A DNA stretch of 64,000 nucleotides. It comes from Candidatus Hebobacterum abditum. Lineage in GTDB: Bacteria; Armatimonadota; Hebobacteria; Hebobacterales; Hebobacteraceae. Under the pieces are notes generated by a model. The model was given only the letters and a program-made list of their open reading frames with translations, ran no database searches and had not been told where the DNA came from. The stretch is taken from the NCBI GenBank assembly GCA_029821875.1, contig JALGXW010000001.1, forward strand, positions 225,987 through 289,986, written 5' to 3'. Each line of letters begins with the position of its first letter. Position 1 is the stretch's first letter. Positions 24,108 through 38,202 of the stretch are shown here, piece by piece. Made by a program: the position numbers and the translations under genes.

Positions 24108-26063
24108 ATGTTGCGCTGCACGCTGTTCGTCGCTGTCGCCACAGTCGCACTAATGGCTCTGCCTGGGGCCGCCCGCGCAGAGGACGAGGCGACTGTGAGC
24201 ATCGTCTCGCCCGCGGATGGCACCGTCGTCACCTTCGGCGAACCGATTACAGTTGAGATTGAGCTCAGCCGGACGCTCGAAGGTTCCCCTTTCAGCCTGC
24301 GCGTGGATGGCAAAGGAGTCTGGATAGGGCAGCAGTCCTATCGCAAGTCCTTCGACAGCACCGAGTGGGGGGAGGGAAGGCACTGGCTCCAGGCGGCGGT
24401 GTTCAAGGACGACGACGAGATCACATCGCCAGCGGTATGGGTGGAAGTCGTCGCGCCTGAACCAGAGGAACCCCCAGAGCCGGGGGAGCCCGGGGAGCCG
24501 GAAGCCGGGGGCTTCGCCGCGCCTGCGGAGAGCTACCGGGAGGGTCTAGGCCAGAGGCCAGCCACGGAGGGCTTTGGGCTGCCGTTCTCCGATGGGTTCG
24601 AGGACGAAGACTTGGACAGCGCCAATTGGATGCGCTACCTCCCGACCCCGGGCATCGAAGTCGTGGAGTTCGACCACGAGCTCCGCATTGCTGGGGAGGC
24701 ACTGTCTGCCGAAGCAGGGGGCGCAGCGGCCACCGTCAAGGCGTTCTTCAACGAGCCAATTGACTGCTCGGTATGGTTCCGTCTGCAGGAGTTGGGCTGC
24801 GATGAGTGCGCAGTTTCCCTGGCGATTCACAGCGAGAGCGGCGCGGTCCACATCAGATACCAGCCCACGATTGGGTACGTTCTCTTCAGCTCAGGCCGGC
24901 AAGATCAACTGAGAACAGCCCCCGCCTTCGGCGACGAGGCCAGTGAGTGGCACCAGCTTCGCCTCGCCTACGATCCCTCTGAGGGATCGGCCCGGGGCTT
25001 TGTGGACGGCGTGTTGCTCGGAACCGTGTCGGCCTCGATTGAGGGCTTCGCGGTCAGTGCTGGGGTAGTGGTCTGGCGCTATGGCTGCTTCCTCGATGTC
25101 CGCTTCGACGACTTCGAGCTGAAGCGGCTTGGGGATGAGCCGGAGCAGCTTCCGCCGCCGGCTGACATCGTCGAGGAAGAGGCGGAGTGGGACCGCGATC
25201 CCTGGCTTGGACCCGACGAGCCCCTTGTCCCCGGCCAGATCGTCGAGCGCCGCACACCGTATGGCGACTACTTCGAGTATGTCCCCCACACCGTCGTCGA
25301 GCCCGCCTTGGTCGCCATCGTCTCTCATGGTTCCTACGGTGATGACCAGATGGACCTCGAACTCAGCCGCGTCAGCGCCCGTAGGTCGATCCACGAGAGG
25401 GGATGGCTGCTGCTCGCCGACACCACCGGCCTCATTCTGGTCGCGCCGTCGTTCGACCACTGGCGCTTCTACGGATACCGCTTCCTCAAGGGATCCCCCA
25501 TCGACGCCGACGAGTTCATCTTCAGAATCGTGGACAGCTATCGCGGCCACTTCGACGCGGTGGATAATCGCATCATTCTCGTCGGCCACTCCGCCGGCGC
25601 GCAGTTCGCCCAGCGCTTCCTCCTGGTTCATCCACACCGCGTCTTCGCCGCCGTCCTCTCCTCCGCTGGCACTTACACCTTCCCCGACGAGACAGTCGAC
25701 TGGCCCTACGGCCGCCGCAATAGCCCCAATCCCGATGGTTTCCTTGAGGCAACGGTGTTGCCCGTGCGCGTTGTCATGGGGTCCCGGGACACGGGCGACG
25801 CGACGGGAATGGGCGTCGCCCAGCGTGGCGACACCCGCGTCGACCGGGCCGACGCCTGGGTCGACGCGATGCGCCAGTTTGCCAACGACAACGGCCTCGA
25901 GCCCCGCATCCATCTCGTTGTCATCCCCGGCGCCGGCCACAGCGCCTGGGCCCTCGATGTGAACGGCGCCTGGTGGCTTGCCGGCATCATCGACACTGAT
26001 CGCGCCGAGCGGCAACCACCTGGCACGGTGCCGGGCTTTCCCGGGATGCAGCCGCCATACTGA
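24108..26063 (+). CDS. Secreted multidomain alpha/beta-hydrolase (esterase/depolymerase type)
   Basis: A 651-residue exported protein. Signal peptide ('CTLFVAVATVALMALPGAARA'-type, about 1-24), then an Ig-like domain (about 30-105; 'VSIVSPADGTVVTFGEPITV'). A Pro/Glu/Gly-rich linker (about 108-135) and a concanavalin/LamG-like domain (about 155-335) follow. The alpha/beta-hydrolase domain (about 385-650) has nucleophile elbow 'ILVGHSAGAQFAQRF', acid region 'VVMGSRDTGDATG' and His in 'IPGAGHSAWALD'. It resembles PHB-depolymerase/feruloyl-esterase-like folds. A carbohydrate or polymer target is inferred from the binding module. ATG 24108 with GAGG seven bases upstream. Confidence 0.8.
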   Translation: MLRCTLFVAVATVALMALPGAARAEDEATVSIVSPADGTVVTFGEPITVEIELSRTLEGSPFSLRVDGKGVWIGQQSYRKSFDSTEWGEGRHWLQAAVFKDDDEITSPAVWVEVVAPEPEEPPEPGEPGEPEAGGFAAPAESYREGLGQRPATEGFGLPFSDGFEDEDLDSANWMRYLPTPGIEVVEFDHELRIAGEALSAEAGGAAATVKAFFNEPIDCSVWFRLQELGCDECAVSLAIHSESGAVHIRYQPTIGYVLFSSGRQDQLRTAPAFGDEASEWHQLRLAYDPSEGSARGFVDGVLLGTVSASIEGFAVSAGVVVWRYGCFLDVRFDDFELKRLGDEPEQLPPPADIVEEEAEWDRDPWLGPDEPLVPGQIVERRTPYGDYFEYVPHTVVEPALVAIVSHGSYGDDQMDLELSRVSARRSIHERGWLLLADTTGLILVAPSFDHWRFYGYRFLKGSPIDADEFIFRIVDSYRGHFDAVDNRIILVGHSAGAQFAQRFLLVHPHRVFAAVLSSAGTYTFPDETVDWPYGRRNSPNPDGFLEATVLPVRVVMGSRDTGDATGMGVAQRGDTRVDRADAWVDAMRQFANDNGLEPRIHLVVIPGAGHSAWALDVNGAWWLAGIIDTDRAERQPPGTVPGFPGMQPPY

Positions 26064-26156
26064 CGCGTGCCGCGATCCGGGGCCTCGTCGCCGAAGGCTG
26101 ACCGCCCCGCGCGTCGTGCCGCCTGCATGGCAGCCAAACCAGCTTGGAGTTGGCGC

Positions 26157-26185
26157 TTGACGCGGCGGCGAATCTGTGGTAGAAG
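26157..26185 (+). promoter_or_regulatory. Putative trp operon promoter
   Basis: TTGACG (26157-26162), 17-bp spacer, TAGAAG (26180-26185). The predicted transcription start (about 26192) is only a few bases before the leader-peptide ATG, so the leader would be nearly leaderless. An additional upstream promoter cannot be excluded. Confidence 0.45.
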
Positions 26186-26198
26186 TGGTTACGGACAG

Positions 26199-26291
26199 AT
26201 GTTGCGATCAGCTCTCGACAATGCGGTGCGCGGTTGCTGGTGGTGGCGCGGTAGGTCTTCCGGCTTGCCGGGCTCCCGCGCGCACGACTGA
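26199..26291 (+). CDS. trpL: trp leader peptide (30 residues, three consecutive Trp)
   Basis: A short open frame ending before the attenuator encodes 30 residues with Cys-Trp-Trp-Trp-Arg at residues 13-17 (TGG TGG TGG, 26238-26246). Trp runs of this kind in a short ORF ahead of trpE are the hallmark of attenuation by ribosome stalling. Stalling at these codons when charged tRNA-Trp is scarce would cover region 1 and free the antiterminator strand. A weak GGACAG lies just upstream of the ATG. Confidence 0.85.
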   Translation: MLRSALDNAVRGCWWWRGRSSGLPGSRAHD

Positions 26292-26361
26292 GCTAGAGCG
26301 CAAACCAAATACGAGACGAAGAGCGATCAGACCAGCCCGGCAAGCCCGGGCTGGTTTTCTT
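26246..26361 (+). promoter_or_regulatory. Trp transcription attenuator: mutually exclusive hairpins
   Basis: Region 2 GGCTTGCCGGGCT (26262-26274) is perfectly complementary over 13 bases to region 3 AGCCCGGCAAGCC (26334-26346), forming the antiterminator. Region 3 also forms the terminator stem with 26346-26355. A 6-bp pairing GCGCGG (26246-26251) with CCGCGC (26276-26281) would act as the 1:2 protector. The geometry matches classical Trp-codon attenuation. Confidence 0.82.
26331..26361 (+). terminator. Intrinsic terminator of the trp attenuator
   Basis: A perfect 10-bp stem, ACCAGCCCGG (26331-26340) and CCGGGCTGGT (26346-26355), with a 5-base loop, is followed by TTTCTT. It lies 38 bp before the trpE start, so it controls entry into the operon. 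Confidence 0.88.
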
Positions 26362-26398
26362 GATTTCGGCTACCACCAAATGAGCGAGGTGCAAGGCG

Positions 26399-27883
26399 AT
26401 GTACTACCCAAGCAAGGCGGAGTTCAAAGAGAAAGCGCGCAGAGGCAACCTCATTCCCGTCTGGAAGGAGGTGCTCCTCGACACCGAGACACCGGTGTCT
26501 GCGTTCCGGAAGATCGGCAACAGCCAGTACGCCTTCCTGCTCGAAAGCGTCGAAGGCGGCGAGAGCGTGGGCCGGCATTCGTTCCTTGGCTCAGAGCCCT
26601 TCGCCGTGTTCACCTCTAAGGGCGACACGGTGACGGTCATGCGGGACGGCCGGAAGCAAACTCGCCAGCTCGCGGAGGGCGAGGACCCCCTCAACGCACT
26701 CGAGGGGCTGCTGTCGGAGTATAGGTTCGTTCCCGTCGAGGGCCTCCCGAAGTTCTGCGGCGGCGCGGTCGGATTCATCGGGTACGACGCAGTCAGGTTC
26801 TTCGAGAAGCTGCCCGAGCAGACGACGGACGACCTCGCCCTTCCGGACTGCGTGCTCGTGCTGACCGACACCTGCGTGATCTTCGACCACGCCTACCACC
26901 GCGGGAAGGTCGTGTCGAACGCCATCGTCAACGGCAATCCGGAGGCGGCCTATGACGAGGCGGTTCGGAAGATCGATGCTATCTGCGCTCGACTGGCCGC
27001 TCCGGTGCCGGCCGTTTCGGCCCCCGCTCCGCGCCCGAAGGACACAAGCCTGAAGACCAACCTGACGCGGGAGGAGTACGAGCGGATCGTCGGCGCGGCG
27101 AAGGAGTATATCTCGGCCGGCGATGTCATCCAGGTGGTGCTGTCGCAGCGGCTCACCCGTGAAGTGGCTGCCAATGTATTCGACATCTACCGCGCGCTGC
27201 GGTCGGTGAACCCGTCGCCATACATGTACTACCTGACCTACGGCGATCTCCGTATTGTTGGAAGCTCCCCCGAGCGGCTCGTCTCCGTGGAGGGCACCGA
27301 GGTGGTCACACGTCCCATCGCGGGCTCCCGGCCGCGCGGCGAGACGGCGGAGGAAGATGAGGCGCTGGCACAGGAATTGCTGGCCGACGAGAAGGAGCGG
27401 GCCGAGCACATCATGCTTCTCGACCTGGGGCGCAACGACATCGGCCGGGTATGCCGGTATGGCACCGTTCGCGTCGACGAGCAGATGGTGATTGAGAAGT
27501 ACTCGCACGTGCAGCACATCGTCTCGAATGTTCGCGGCGAGTTGGGGTCCGATAGCGATCAGTTCGATGTGCTGCGGGCCTGCTTCCCGGCCGGGACGCT
27601 ATCGGGCGCGCCGAAGGTGCGCGCGATGGAGATCATCGAAGAGCTGGAGCCGACGCGGCGCGGCCCCTACGGGGGCGTGATCGGGTACTTCAGCTTCTCG
27701 GGCAACATGGACACGGCCATCACGATTCGCACCATCGTCTGCACGAATGGCACCGCTCACATGCAGGTCGGCGCTGGCATCGTGGCCGACTCGGTGCCAT
27801 CGCGGGAGTACGACGAGTGTGTGAAACTAAAGGGGGGAGCTCTGCTGCGGGCGATTGAGATGGCCGAGGCGGGGCTGGAGTAG
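26399..27883 (+). CDS. trpE: Anthranilate synthase component I
   Basis: A 494-residue enzyme that converts chorismate to anthranilate with ammonia from TrpG, the first committed step to tryptophan. The Trp feedback site is visible in 'FLLESVEGGESVGRHSFLG' (about 42-60). The chorismate-binding domain has 'AGDVIQVVLSQRLTR', 'PSPYMYYLTYGDLRIVGSSPE', 'RPIAGSRPRGET', 'LLDLGRNDIGRVC', 'FPAGTLSGAPKVRAMEII' and 'GAGIVADSVPSREYDEC'. ATG at 26399 with GAGGTG upstream, immediately after the attenuator. First structural gene of the trp operon. Confidence 0.96.
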   Translation: MYYPSKAEFKEKARRGNLIPVWKEVLLDTETPVSAFRKIGNSQYAFLLESVEGGESVGRHSFLGSEPFAVFTSKGDTVTVMRDGRKQTRQLAEGEDPLNALEGLLSEYRFVPVEGLPKFCGGAVGFIGYDAVRFFEKLPEQTTDDLALPDCVLVLTDTCVIFDHAYHRGKVVSNAIVNGNPEAAYDEAVRKIDAICARLAAPVPAVSAPAPRPKDTSLKTNLTREEYERIVGAAKEYISAGDVIQVVLSQRLTREVAANVFDIYRALRSVNPSPYMYYLTYGDLRIVGSSPERLVSVEGTEVVTRPIAGSRPRGETAEEDEALAQELLADEKERAEHIMLLDLGRNDIGRVCRYGTVRVDEQMVIEKYSHVQHIVSNVRGELGSDSDQFDVLRACFPAGTLSGAPKVRAMEIIEELEPTRRGPYGGVIGYFSFSGNMDTAITIRTIVCTNGTAHMQVGAGIVADSVPSREYDECVKLKGGALLRAIEMAEAGLE

Positions 27884-28932
<1,049 letters not shown>

Positions 28933-28933
<1 letters not shown>

Positions 28934-29523
28934 TGCTGGTGATGATAGACAACTACGATTCCTTCACGTACAACTTAGTCCAGTACCTGGGCGAGCTCGG
29001 CCAGGCCATCAAGGTCTACCGCAACGACCAGGCCACCGTGGACGAGGTGGAGCAGCAGAAGCCCGAACGGATCGTGATATCGCCGGGGCCTTGCACGCCC
29101 AAAGAGGCCGGGGTCTCGAACGAGATCCTGCGGCGCTTCGCGGGTAAGGTGCCCATCCTCGGCGTCTGTCTGGGCCATCAATGCATCGGATATGTGTTCG
29201 GCGGCGAGGTCGTCCGCGCGCCGCGTCTGATGCACGGGAAGACATCGATGATCCAGCACGATGGCAAGACGATCTTCGAAGGGCTGCCAAACCCGTTCGA
29301 GGCGACGCGCTATCACTCGCTCATCATCAAGCGGGACACGCTCCCGGATTGCCTCGAGATCACAGCCGAGACCGATCAAGAGGAGATCATGGGGGTGCGG
29401 CACAAAGATCATGCCATTGAGGGGGTGCAGTTTCACCCGGAGTCGATCCTCACGCAGGCCGGCAAGGATCTGCTTCGAAACTTCTTGGCTCTCCAAGAGA
29501 AGGGGGAGGACGATGATCGCTGA
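28933..29523 (+). CDS. trpG: Anthranilate synthase component II (glutamine amidotransferase)
   Basis: A 196-residue class I amidotransferase supplying ammonia to TrpE. The catalytic triad is visible: Cys in '[17 protein letters not shown]', His and Glu in '[13 protein letters not shown]'. The N-terminus '[19 protein letters not shown]' is diagnostic for TrpG/PabA. ATG at 28933 overlaps the trpS stop (TGATG) and has GGAGG seven bases upstream. It may also serve para-aminobenzoate synthesis if no pabA exists elsewhere. Confidence 0.95.
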
Positions 29524-30517
29524 TGCCATTCGCAAGGCTGCGGACGGATCGAATCTGACAGGTGGTGAAGCCAACGCGGCCATGGCTGCTATCATGTCGG
29601 GCGAGGCCAGCCCGGTTCAGATAGGGGCCTTCCTCGTGGCGATGCGGATGAAGGGTGAGACTGTTGAAGAGGTGACCGAGTTCGCCCGCGTCATGCGCCA
29701 GCACGCTCGCGAGGTGAAGACCAAGAGGCGACCGCTGGTAGATACGTGCGGCACCGGTGGCGACGCGATCAAGACCTTCAACGTGTCGACCGCGGCGGCC
29801 TTCGTGGCTGCCGGGGCCGGCGTCGCCATCGCCAAGCACGGCAACCGATCCGTGACGAGCAAGTGCGGTAGCGCCGACGTGCTGGAGGCGCTTGGTGTGC
29901 GGTTCGACCTCACGCCAGAGGAGGCGGCAAAGGCGATCGACGAGGTCGGGCTTGGCTTCATGTTCGCGCCTTCATACCATCCCGCCATGAAGCATGCAAT
30001 GCCGGTCCGCAGGGAGCTTGGGCTGCGCACAGTGTTCAACATGCTGGGGCCGCTCACGAACCCGGCGGGCGCGGATGCCCAGGTGCTGGGGGTGTACTCG
30101 CCGGAGCTCACGGAGTTCCACGGCGGAGTCCTCCAGAGTCTTGGGGCAAGTCGAGCCTTCGTGGTCCACGGCGCGGGCGGCCTCGACGAGCTGTCGACTC
30201 TGGGCGAGACGCGGGTGACCGAGCTCAAGGACGGAGCTCTCGAGACCTACGAGCTCGTGCCGGAGGACGTTGGGCTGTCGCGGGCATCGGGCCCGGAGGC
30301 GATCCAGGGAGCGACGCCGGAGGAGAATGCACGCCTCCTCGCCGAGATACTGGACGGCAAGCACGGGCCGGCACGAGACATCGTCGTGCTGAATGCGGCC
30401 GCGGCGGTCGCAGCTGCCAGTCTGGCAGACACCATAGAAGCGGGCGTCGCGGTGGCGGCCGAGTCCATCGACTCCGGCGCCGCGGCCGAGAAGCTTCGAC
30501 AGCTCCAGGCCTTCTGA
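29513..30517 (+). CDS. trpD: Anthranilate phosphoribosyltransferase
   Basis: A 334-residue enzyme joining anthranilate and PRPP, step two of the pathway. The PRPP loop '[18 protein letters not shown]' and '[20 protein letters not shown]' are present, with '[20 protein letters not shown]' and the metal site region '[12 protein letters not shown]'. Start ATG overlaps trpG by 11 bp, with GGGGGAGGA upstream. Confidence 0.96.
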
Positions 30518-30530
30518 AGTTGTAGGCGAG

Positions 30531-31301
30531 ATGATTCTCGACGAGATCCTGGAACGCAAACGGTCGGAGATCGCCGGCCTTCGGCCACTATGCGAAGGCT
30601 GGTCGCCGCCGGCTGTCCCTCCTCCGCGCAGGGACTTCGCGGCCGCCGTGCAGCGCGCCGGGATATCGCTCATCGCGGAGTTCAAGCGGCGGTCTCCCTC
30701 GCGCGGTGACATCAATGTGGGTGCGGACCCAGCGCGGGTGGCACGGGCCAATGCGGGTGCCGGCGCGGCGGCGCTCTCGGTCCTCACAGACATCCGGTTC
30801 TTCGGAGGAAGTATGGACGACTTGCTGGCCGCGCGCGGCGCCGCGGAGCTTCCGGTGCTCCGGAAGGACTTTATCATCGACCCGTGCCAGGTCGCCGAGT
30901 CGTCAGGGGCAGATGGCCCGGATTGTCTGCTGCTGATCGCGGCCGCGCTCGATGCAAGCCAACTCCGATCGCTTCGCGAGCTGGCCGCGCGCTGCGGGCA
31001 GGCGGCACTCGTCGAAGTGCACAACAAGGATGAGCTGGAGGAGGCCCTGGCGAGCGGGGCCGAGATCGTCGGCATCAACAACCGCGACTTGAGGACGTTT
31101 GAAGTGTCGCTGGAGACGACGCTGTCGCTGCGGCCCCGCGTGCCGACAGGGATCCCCGTGGTATCGGAGAGCGGGATCCATACGTGTGACGATGTGCAGC
31201 AGCTGGCCGACGCGGGCGTGGATGCCATCCTCGTGGGGGAAGCATTGATGGCGGCCGATGATCCCTCGCGGAAGATCGAGGAGCTGATGGGGGCAGCATG
31301 A
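30531..31301 (+). CDS. trpC: Indole-3-glycerol phosphate synthase
   Basis: A 256-residue TIM barrel that closes the indole ring. Catalytic landmarks: 'ISLIAEFKRRSPSRGDI' (Glu-Lys), 'VLRKDFIIDPCQV' (Lys), 'EIVGINNRDLRTFEV' (Asn) and 'IPVVSESGI' (Glu-Ser). Mono-functional, not fused to TrpF. Its stop overlaps the trpF start (ATGA). Confidence 0.96.
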   Translation: MILDEILERKRSEIAGLRPLCEGWSPPAVPPPRRDFAAAVQRAGISLIAEFKRRSPSRGDINVGADPARVARANAGAGAAALSVLTDIRFFGGSMDDLLAARGAAELPVLRKDFIIDPCQVAESSGADGPDCLLLIAAALDASQLRSLRELAARCGQAALVEVHNKDELEEALASGAEIVGINNRDLRTFEVSLETTLSLRPRVPTGIPVVSESGIHTCDDVQQLADAGVDAILVGEALMAADDPSRKIEELMGAA

Positions 31302-31919
31302 CGCGCATCAAGATCTGCGGGATTACTCGCACGGAGGACGCGCTGCACGCCGCCGAGTGCGGGGCGGATGCCATCGGCTTAAACTTCGCCGAGAGCCCGC
31401 GGCGGGTGTCGCCCGAGAGGGCGGGCGAGATCATGGCCGACGTCGGTCCGTTCCTCACCGGGGTCGGCGTGTTCGTCGACAGCAGCGCCGAAGAGGTGCG
31501 GAGCGCGCTGCGAACCGGCTCGTGCACTGTTGCTCAGCTACACGGGAGCGAACCGGCCGACTTCATACCGGCCCTCTCGCCATACCGGGTTGTGAAGGCG
31601 ATAAGAGTGAGCGGCGCCCTTGACGAGACCGTGCTGCGACGGTATAAGGATGCTGCGGCGATCCTATTGGATACCTACGTGGTGGGGAAAGCGGGCGGAA
31701 CGGGAGAGCGCTTCGATCCGGCGGTCGCTGGTCGTCTGGTGAAGGAGGGTTGGCGCGTGATAGTGGCGGGAGGGCTGACGCCTGACAACGTCGGCGAGGT
31801 GGTGGCCGCCGTTCGGCCGTACGCTGTTGACGTGAGCACGGGCGTCGAGGCGGCGCCCGGCAGGAAGGACCTCCAGAAGGTGGCTGACTTCATCGCGGCC
31901 GTTCGGGCGGCCGATCGAG

Positions 31920-31930
<11 letters not shown>
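31298..31930 (+). CDS. trpF: Phosphoribosylanthranilate isomerase
   Basis: A 210-residue TIM barrel catalysing the Amadori rearrangement in tryptophan synthesis. The catalytic Cys is in '[14 protein letters not shown]' and the catalytic Asp near 'ILLDTYV'. The phosphate site is '[16 protein letters not shown]' with '[16 protein letters not shown]'. Overlaps both neighbours. Confidence 0.95.
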
Positions 31931-33136
<1,206 letters not shown>

Positions 33137-33140
<4 letters not shown>

Positions 33141-33961
33141 GCCGCATAGGGGCCTGCTTCGACGAACTCGGACGGAAGGAGCAGGGGGCTCTGGTCGTGT
33201 TCACTGTCGCTGGCCACCCCACCCCGGCGCTCAGCTCGGAGCTGCTCGTCGCCATCGCGGAGGCCGGCGCGGATATCATCGAGCTGGGGATTCCCTTCTC
33301 CGATCCCCTGGCGGATGGGCCTGCGATTCAGGCGGCCTCCCAACGGGCGTTGGCGGAGCACATGACGCCCGCTCGCGTTCTGGAACTAGCGGCTGGGTTC
33401 CGGGCCGCGCGCGATGTACCCCTCGTGTTGATGACATGCTATAATCCGGTCTACCAGTTTGGCCTCGAGGAGTTCGCGGAGGCAAGTGCTGGGGCCGGAG
33501 TAGACGGAGTGATCGTCACGGACCTGCCGCCGGAAGAGGCCGACGACTGGGCCGGGATAGCGCGCAAGCGCGGGATCGACACCATCTTTCTACTCTCTCC
33601 CAACAGCCCCGCCGCGCGCGTGAAAAAAGTGGTTGACCTTGCGGGTGGCTTTGTGTACTGTGTTTCCCGGTTGGGAGTGACGGGTGCGCGTCCTGAGCTG
33701 CCGACGGATCTGGCGCAACTCGTGGCCCGCATCCGAGGCGAAACGACGAAGCCGATTGCCGTTGGGTTCGGGGTATCTCGGCCCGAGCATGTGGCTGAAG
33801 TATGTCGGGTCGCTGACGGCGCGGTCGTGGGCAGTGCCGTCGTGTCGCTCATCGATCGGCAGGCGGGGTCGGCGGGGCCTGCCGAGGCTGTCGGAGCGTT
33901 CGTTCGCGAGCTCAAGGCGGCGACGCGAAGCGAGCGCGTGACGAAGCCGGATCCGCTCTGA
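33137..33961 (+). CDS. trpA: Tryptophan synthase alpha chain
   Basis: A 274-residue TIM barrel that releases indole from indole-3-glycerol phosphate for channelling to TrpB. Catalytic Glu is in '[19 protein letters not shown]' and Asp in '[12 protein letters not shown]'. Other landmarks are '[13 protein letters not shown]' and '[12 protein letters not shown]'. GTG start overlaps the trpB stop by four bases (GTGA). Last trp gene of the operon. Confidence 0.96.
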
Positions 33962-37746: not shown

Positions 37747-37771
37747 ACGTACAGCAGGTTCGCAAAGGCAT

Positions 37772-37845
37772 CGGGGCGTGGCGCAATTTGGTAGCGCACC
37801 GGTATGGGGTGCCGGTGGTTGTCGGTTCGAGTCCGGCCGCCCCGA
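37772..37845 (+). tRNA. tRNA-Pro (anticodon GGG)
   Basis: A 74-nt cloverleaf. Acceptor CGGGGCG pairs with CGCCCCG, D-arm GCGC/GCGC, anticodon stem CCGGT/GCCGG with loop ATGGGGT (anticodon GGG), T-arm GTCGG-TTCGAGT-CCGGC. Discriminator A. CCA is not encoded. Confidence 0.93.
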
Positions 37846-37946
37846 TATGTCTTCCTTCGGTGTGGTGGGTCGGGGGCCCGCTCCTTGATGCTCTTTGGCG
37901 ACTAGGCCTGATTGCAGGCGCGGCCGACCTGTGCTACCATGTAGGC

Positions 37947-38202
37947 GGAAGGACAGTTCGCCCTGCGGTGTGCGTGTTGTCCTTAGAAGCTTTGAGCCAA
38001 CAGATACGTGCCGGGAGCCAGAGTCTGGCGGCCAAGTAGAATCCTGGCGGACTCGCCTCGATTCACGCGGACGACCAGCGCGGCACCCACCTGCTTCGGC
38101 AGGTTCAAAAGCTCGTAGGACTCACGGCACTCGCGGGGCTCTGATATGGGCGGGGCTCACAACAGCTCACCAGAAGGCGGGCCCGAACGGGCCCGCCTTC
38201 TG
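37947..38202 (+). ncRNA. Candidate noncoding transcript ending in a strong terminator
   Basis: The interval from tRNA-Pro to rhaD (37846-38317) has no convincing gene. An extended -10 (TGCTACCAT, with TACCAT at 37935-37940) lies 17 bp after TTGCAG (37912-37917), giving a predicted start near 37947. Visible structure: a 5' hairpin AAGGACA/TGTCCTT (37949-37984), a stem-loop ACCTGC-TTCG-GCAGGT (about 38090-38105), long-range GAGCC/GGCTC pairings, and the terminator at 38171. I could not match it to 6S, tmRNA, RNase P, SRP or a riboswitch class. Confidence 0.4.
38171..38202 (+). terminator. Strong intrinsic terminator upstream of rhaD
   Basis: A perfect 15-bp inverted repeat CAGAAGGCGGGCCCG-AA-CGGGCCCGCCTTCTG is followed by TTTGGGTT. 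It closes transcription of the tRNA-Pro/noncoding segment before the rha promoter. Confidence 0.88.

Follow-up and report, generated by a model that had tools for sequence, protein, structure and literature searches.

The short leader ahead of the tryptophan biosynthesis genes of Candidatus Hebobacterum abditum raised the question of how the trp operon is controlled in this organism. The locus lies in a 64,000-nucleotide stretch of DNA, referred to here as the window, from a 4.3-Mb MAG (G000) of the Armatimonadota. Trp attenuators are established in Proteobacteria, and the original prediction had placed one in a lineage with Terrabacteria-like traits; that guess agreed with the nearest named relatives of trpE, which were Armatimonadetes MAGs. 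Our analysis indicated that the leader very probably controls the trp operon as a transcription attenuator of the classical, ribosome-mediated type, a reading drawn from the sequence and its comparison with relatives.

Elements of the trp leader and the proposed switch

The leader preceded trpE-trpS-trpG-D-C-F-B-A, all genes being on the plus strand, as are the leader elements, with short gaps or overlaps between them. The genes trpE (anthranilate synthase component I, 26399–27883, TIGR00564), the auxiliary trpS-like gene (27890–28933, TIGR00233), trpG (28930–29523, TIGR00566), trpD (29507–30517 with an approximate start, TIGR01245), trpC (30531–31301, NF001377), trpB (31920–33140, TIGR00263), and trpA (33137–33961, TIGR00262) scored above the cut-offs of their models. 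The product of trpF (31298–31930) reached 206.5 bits with NF002298, below the cut-off of 215, and was assigned by operon position. A second TrpE/PabB-like protein, with 43% identity to TrpE, was encoded at G000:C27:192110–193519. Further along the window, a 6S RNA (37957–38143) was located directly 3' of a tRNA-Pro gene (37771–37846).

The leader ORF (trpL, 26199–26291), as read from the sequence, comprised 30 codons from an ATG at 26199 to a TGA stop at 26289–26291, and its translation up to the stop was MLRSALDNAVRGCWWWRGRSSGLPGSRAHD. The predicted TGG TGG TGG was present at 26238–26246, encoding residues 14–16, and these three tandem Trp codons would serve as the sensor. Region 2, the 5' strand of the antiterminator (GGCTTGCCGGGCT, 26262–26274), lay within the leader ORF, where it coded for GLPG, and started 24 nt after the first Trp codon, a distance of 24–28 nt in the window and four relatives. 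Region 3 (AGCCCGGCAAGCC, 26334–26346) was common to antiterminator and terminator and contained the terminator loop CAAG. Regions 3 and 4 formed an intrinsic terminator with a T-rich tail (26329–26361), in which 12 pairs and a 5-nt loop occupied 26329–26357. The placement of region 3 in the terminator stem was correct as originally described; the tail, given as TTTCTT, is TTTTCTT, whose leading T's may be assigned to the stem.

Regions 2 and 3 were perfectly complementary, as claimed, over 13 of 13 bases (26262–26274 with 26334–26346), a score that 500 dinucleotide-shuffled leaders never attained (p = 0.002), and their duplex had an energy of −29.4 kcal/mol (p = 0.003). The terminator energy was −22.4 kcal/mol, and the 28-nt core of its hairpin had −16.2 kcal/mol (z −2.9). 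The terminator scan returned two overlapping terminator-like sites, against a mean of 0.3 in shuffles, and the whole leader folded better than did 197 of its 200 shuffled versions (z −2.19). For 26255–26351, which represents the RNA beyond a stalled ribosome with region 4 incomplete, the minimum-energy fold was the 2:3 antiterminator. When region 4 was included (26255–26363), the terminator was lower in energy than the antiterminator at equilibrium. Because the terminator wins at equilibrium, the switch must be kinetic and decided during transcription; the E. coli trp attenuator switch is also kinetic. Region 1, placed approximately at 26241–26253 over Trp, Arg, and Gly codons, would pair with about 26276–26287 and so close region 2 in a hairpin. 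This 1:2 pairing appeared in the minimum-energy fold of 26199–26331, which was not better than shuffles (z −0.66), and region 1 with its modeled 1:2 state was the least supported element of the attenuator.

The leader, its Trp run, the 2:3 and 3:4 pairings, and the operon can be read directly in the DNA, as can their conservation described below, and from them we infer a transcription start, ribosome stalling, a 1:2 state, and a response to tryptophan as follows. RNA polymerase would start just 5' of 26199, and a ribosome would load on the near-leaderless ORF. With charged tRNA-Trp plentiful, the ribosome would pass the Trp codons, translate region 2, and end at 26289; since the ORF contains region 2 and continues to a stop codon 15 nt past it, an unstalled ribosome would run through region 2. 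Regions 1 and 2 would then re-pair behind it, leaving region 3 free to form the 3:4 terminator, and transcription would stop before trpE. With charged tRNA-Trp scarce, the ribosome would stall at 26238–26246, covering region 1 and exposing region 2, which would pair with region 3 once that was made. The terminator would be blocked, and trpE-trpS-trpGDCFBA would be transcribed.

Where the transcript would begin was approached through the promoter. A putative sigma-70 promoter at 26157–26185 on the plus strand, consisting of TTGACG (26157–26162), a 17-nt spacer, and TAGAAG (26180–26185), matched 9 of 12 consensus positions (p = 0.007 against mononucleotide shuffles), with homologous boxes 5' of the leader ATG in four relatives (G002, G004, G005, and G008). 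It was not reported by a stricter promoter scan; its −10 box, TAGAAG, is poor, with G at position 6. In the window, the gap from the −10 box to the leader ATG was 13 nt. The same question was asked of 38 Armatimonadota leaders (32 before trpE and 6 before trpS), with start codons picked by hand, by scoring the best TTGACA-TATAAT pair ending at most 30 nt from the leader ATG against shuffles. The promoter pair beat shuffles (p < 0.05) for 32 of the 38, and among those 32 the gap from the −10 box to the ATG was 7–22 nt, being 9 nt in 11 and at most 10 nt in 17. A search for Shine-Dalgarno words found none in 26 of 32 leaders. Transcription starts about 7 nt 3' of a −10 box; with the leader ATG about 9 nt past a sigma-70 −10 box in many genomes, this spacing suggested that many leaders of the phylum probably start at or beside the first RNA base and are leaderless.

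Conservation in the order and distribution in the phylum

The original prediction was staked on conservation of the Trp codons and the antiterminator pairing in close relatives, and both were kept in all four relatives with readable DNA 5' of trpE, namely G002, G004, and G005 of the same family and G008 of the same order. Left out were G001, of the same genus, whose contig ends 47 nt before trpE, and G003, G006, and G007, which had no usable trpE start. TrpE identity to the window was 85% (G002), 79% (G004), 76% (G005), and 70% (G008). The leader peptides contained ...CWAWRG in G002 and G004, ...CWWWRG in G005, and ...AWVWRG in G008, so that the Trp run and the following Arg-Gly were kept in four of four, the first and third Trp were invariant in the order, and the middle residue was W, A, or V. 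The terminator was likewise kept in each. The 2:3 pairing extended over 13 bp in the window, 13 in G005, 12 in G004, and 11, including G-U, in G002; in G008 it was a 7-bp run whose duplex was not significant (p = 0.062 in the perfect-run test and p = 0.133 by duplex energy). The loop CAAG is not needed by the terminator as such; it was retained in the three relatives in which region 2 has CTTG, and G008 was without both. In G005, two A-U pairs at the base of the terminator stem were changed to C-G on both sides.

The conservation of residues other than Trp (CW-x-WRG and GLPG) could also be expected if the leader peptide were a ligand-sensing arrest peptide or acted in trans, whether or not it was a codon sensor as well. 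TnaC senses free Trp as an arrest peptide. A trans role is described for the Sinorhizobium peptide peTrpL (PMC7298713). In the order examined here, the conservation of CW-x-WRG and GLPG is accounted for by their position on RNA strands 1 and 2. The middle Trp varies, the peptides of other families share little beyond W-x-W-R, and the TnaC logic would induce biosynthesis at high Trp, which is senseless for a trp operon. A sensing or trans-acting peptide is therefore very unlikely, and sensing of charged tRNA-Trp through the Trp codons is preferred.

A survey of the phylum yielded a trpE match in 229 of 261 sampled genomes. Upstream DNA was taken for 140, mostly of the best-scoring trpE, and one locus with 47 nt (L002) was dropped to leave 139, with family f15 under-sampled; a locus count of 19/130 contained duplicate genomes and was set aside. 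Only 45 of the 139 trpE upstream regions had any terminator-like hairpin of the kind sought, and in 32 such a hairpin came after a short ORF containing TGG-TGG or TGG-x-TGG. When the same test was applied to all other sense codons, the maximum was 9 (CGC) and the median 1. A strict leader scan was passed by 17 of the 139 regions, where dinucleotide shuffles would give 0.05. The 32 trpE leaders spanned 17 families, and most of them read W-x-W-R or W-W-W-R.

These counts also bear on the possibility that a Trp-rich ORF and the terminator of the upstream gene merely adjoin by chance. That gene is on the same strand and ends at 26063, and the motif TGGTGGTGG alone occurred at 145 places in the genome, compared with 93 for the reversed control; bare TGGTGGTGG is not special, and the weight lies on the combination and its conservation. 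Such a coincidence is hard to reconcile with a device kept in four relatives with diverged surroundings, with the excess in the strict scan, and with TGG as the outlier among 61 codons, and we gave it practically no credence.

Pairing between leader and terminator was examined across the same leaders. Of 31 genomes (one of the 32 having no terminator by the second method), 16 showed pairing of the leader with the nearest terminator at p < 0.05; pairing with a second terminator reached this level in none of 12 in the duplex test. Under the strict perfect-run antiterminator test, significance was reached by only 7 of the 35 combinations of leader and terminator, two of which involved a second terminator. 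Another homologous group, 12 leaders of families f20, f35, and f36, had its antiterminator paired in 87.1% of cells, compared with 37.8–52.6% when it was slid by 1–3 columns; 3 of its 10 pairs had changes on both sides, and the paired fraction was reached by 19 of 500 shuffles. The terminator helix of this group was paired in 84.1% of cells, with covariation not above shuffles.

Tandem terminators were observed between the Trp leader and trpE at L011, L022, L029, L159, L160, L163, L185, L215, L226, and other loci. A relay, in which the freed 3' arm of terminator 1 would block terminator 2, was tried in 11 genomes; own pairs had a mean rank of about 4.5 of 11, with the three genomes of family f28 ranking 1 to 3. 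Since own pairs had no clear advantage over swapped ones, a relay is not claimed.

The leader scan was also applied to 76 trpE upstream regions from other phyla and a few Armatimonadota (77 loci minus L083, which had a short upstream region), and returned 3 Trp hits compared with 5 for AAG, which is no enrichment. The three were L087 and L107 (Desulfobacteria/Deltaproteobacteria) and L099 (Armatimonadetes). As a separate observation, L087 (WSWWWSSG) and L107 (WYWWWRSLEG) were strong Trp leaders with terminators 5' of trpE in MAGs. An Rfam scan of 20 trpE loci of relatives without leaders yielded only tRNAs at the gathering score.

The operon trpS and other regulators of amino acid genes

The nearest solved relative of the auxiliary trpS-like product was TrpRS II of Deinococcus radiodurans (PDB 1yi8/2a4m). 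In both genomes of the genus (G000 and G001), the KMSKS motif of the operon trpS reads KMGAS, which makes the aminoacylation activity of the operon TrpRS uncertain, and this paralogue, judging by its motif, could act as a regulator or have only weak enzyme activity. The second TrpS of G000, on contig 42, keeps KMSKS. Within the class, the operon paralogue occurred only in G000 and G001, and the other clear TrpS matches were 34–46% identical to it. The Deinococcus auxiliary TrpRS is linked to nitric oxide synthase; a corresponding link was considered and rejected here, as nitric oxide synthase was found in 0 of 14 genomes of the class.

An association of trpS with the leader was seen outside the genus as well. 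Six genomes from families f20 and f36 (loci L271–L276 in G081, G139, G114, G161, G134, and G099) had trpS directly 5' of trpE, and in all six a Trp leader reading W-V-W-R or W-G-W-R preceded trpS. In at least three families, one attenuator therefore appears to control both TrpRS and Trp synthesis. Stand-alone trpS genes of family f9 (L279, L280, and L286) were also preceded by short ORFs containing WW or WAW, which are possible trpS attenuators.

An incidental leader ORF, with the operon controlled by TRAP, a T-box, or a TrpR repressor, was weighed against attenuation. T-boxes do occur on other genes of this genome: four matches were located in G000 before ilvD, valS, aspS (non-discriminating), and pheS (L258, L259, L260, and L287), with scores of 72.8–92.4 bits, below the gathering cut-off of 93, and E values of about 1e-15 or better. 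One weak TrpR-like match in G000 reached 22.5 bits against a cut-off of 27. No T-box (RF00230) was found in the window at the gathering score, nor at E ≤ 10 in 26100–26500. TRAP (PF02081) was found in 0 of 14 genomes of the class, with a positive B. subtilis control, and TrpR above cut-off also in 0 of 14. Moreover, a T-box needs neither tandem Trp codons in an ORF nor a region 2 within that ORF, and control by any of these three in place of attenuation was judged extremely improbable. The presence of T-boxes on other amino acid genes of the same genome indicated instead that the trp operon is handled differently. TrpR could act in addition to the attenuator, and repression by some other protein may occur. 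At the leader, the best Rfam matches were sraL (E 0.08) and Yfr1 (E 8), below the gathering score and taken as chance. His-codon runs were present at 6 places in G000, compared with 3 in the control.

Relation to known attenuators

The leader of the window shares with E. coli, as generally known for that system, tandem Trp codons, mutually exclusive 2:3 and 3:4 pairings, and an intrinsic terminator before trpE. The E. coli leader stop codon lies before region 2; the window differs in having it after region 2, in its near-leaderless ORF, and in the presence of trpS in the operon. Rfam RF00513, the Trp_leader family of the E. coli trp attenuator, had no match at the window leader even at E ≤ 10, so the window leader would work like Trp_leader without being a member by that model.

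In Corynebacterium and Streptomyces, attenuators of trp and trpS2 have been predicted or shown, and Actinobacteria use T-boxes too, according to the passages of PMC1262725 on these genes. Double or triple UGG, a GC-rich terminator, attenuators of trp and trpS2, and T-boxes in the phylum are common features. In Actinobacteria, trpS was reported as a separately attenuated gene, whereas trpS and trpE are under one leader in the genus of the window and in the six genomes of two other families. As Actinobacteria, which belong to the Terrabacteria, already have trp and trpS attenuators, the Terrabacterial surprise is limited. The original contrast with TRAP and T-box lineages was accordingly weakened, and what stood of it was the different handling of trp in a genome that has T-boxes. 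Neither the trpS paralogue in the operon nor the spread of such leaders over the phylum had been noticed in the original prediction.

The trpL of Sinorhizobium meliloti (rnTrpL), whose 5' end is reported to start with the ATG (PMC7298713), resembles the window in having its ORF at or near the transcript 5' end with no Shine-Dalgarno sequence needed; in the window, the 5' end is predicted from promoter spacing only. Dehalococcoides (Chloroflexi) likewise has a trp gene of a Terrabacterial lineage under a leader RNA, which at trpE is a tRNA-sensing T-box (PMC2494555), in contrast to the leader peptide of the window. A 2010 paper (PMC2965389) held that leader-peptide attenuation was known only from Proteobacteria, Actinobacteria, and, with its own hisS case, Firmicutes. 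In the open-access literature, we found no report of leader-peptide trp attenuation in Armatimonadota. The ribosome-stalling trp attenuation first proposed for this locus was well supported by the leader, the 2:3 and 3:4 pairings, and their conservation. What is surprising is less the device than the phylum in which it occurs and how widely it is distributed there.

A wider picture can be sketched, in which an old, phylum-wide leaderless trp leader system exists beside T-boxes, one charged tRNA-Trp sensor in several lineages drives both Trp synthesis and TrpRS in a closed feedback loop, and the KMGAS TrpRS of the genus of the window is perhaps more a regulator than a full synthetase; we consider this speculative and, taken as a whole, rather doubtful.

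With these findings, the window gains a firm functional annotation. The occurrence of trp leaders in 17 families of Armatimonadota, a phylum that also has T-boxes, helps to frame the question of why one amino acid is sensed through the ribosome and others through a tRNA-binding RNA. A second question that becomes easier to put is whether leader peptides arose independently in different phyla.
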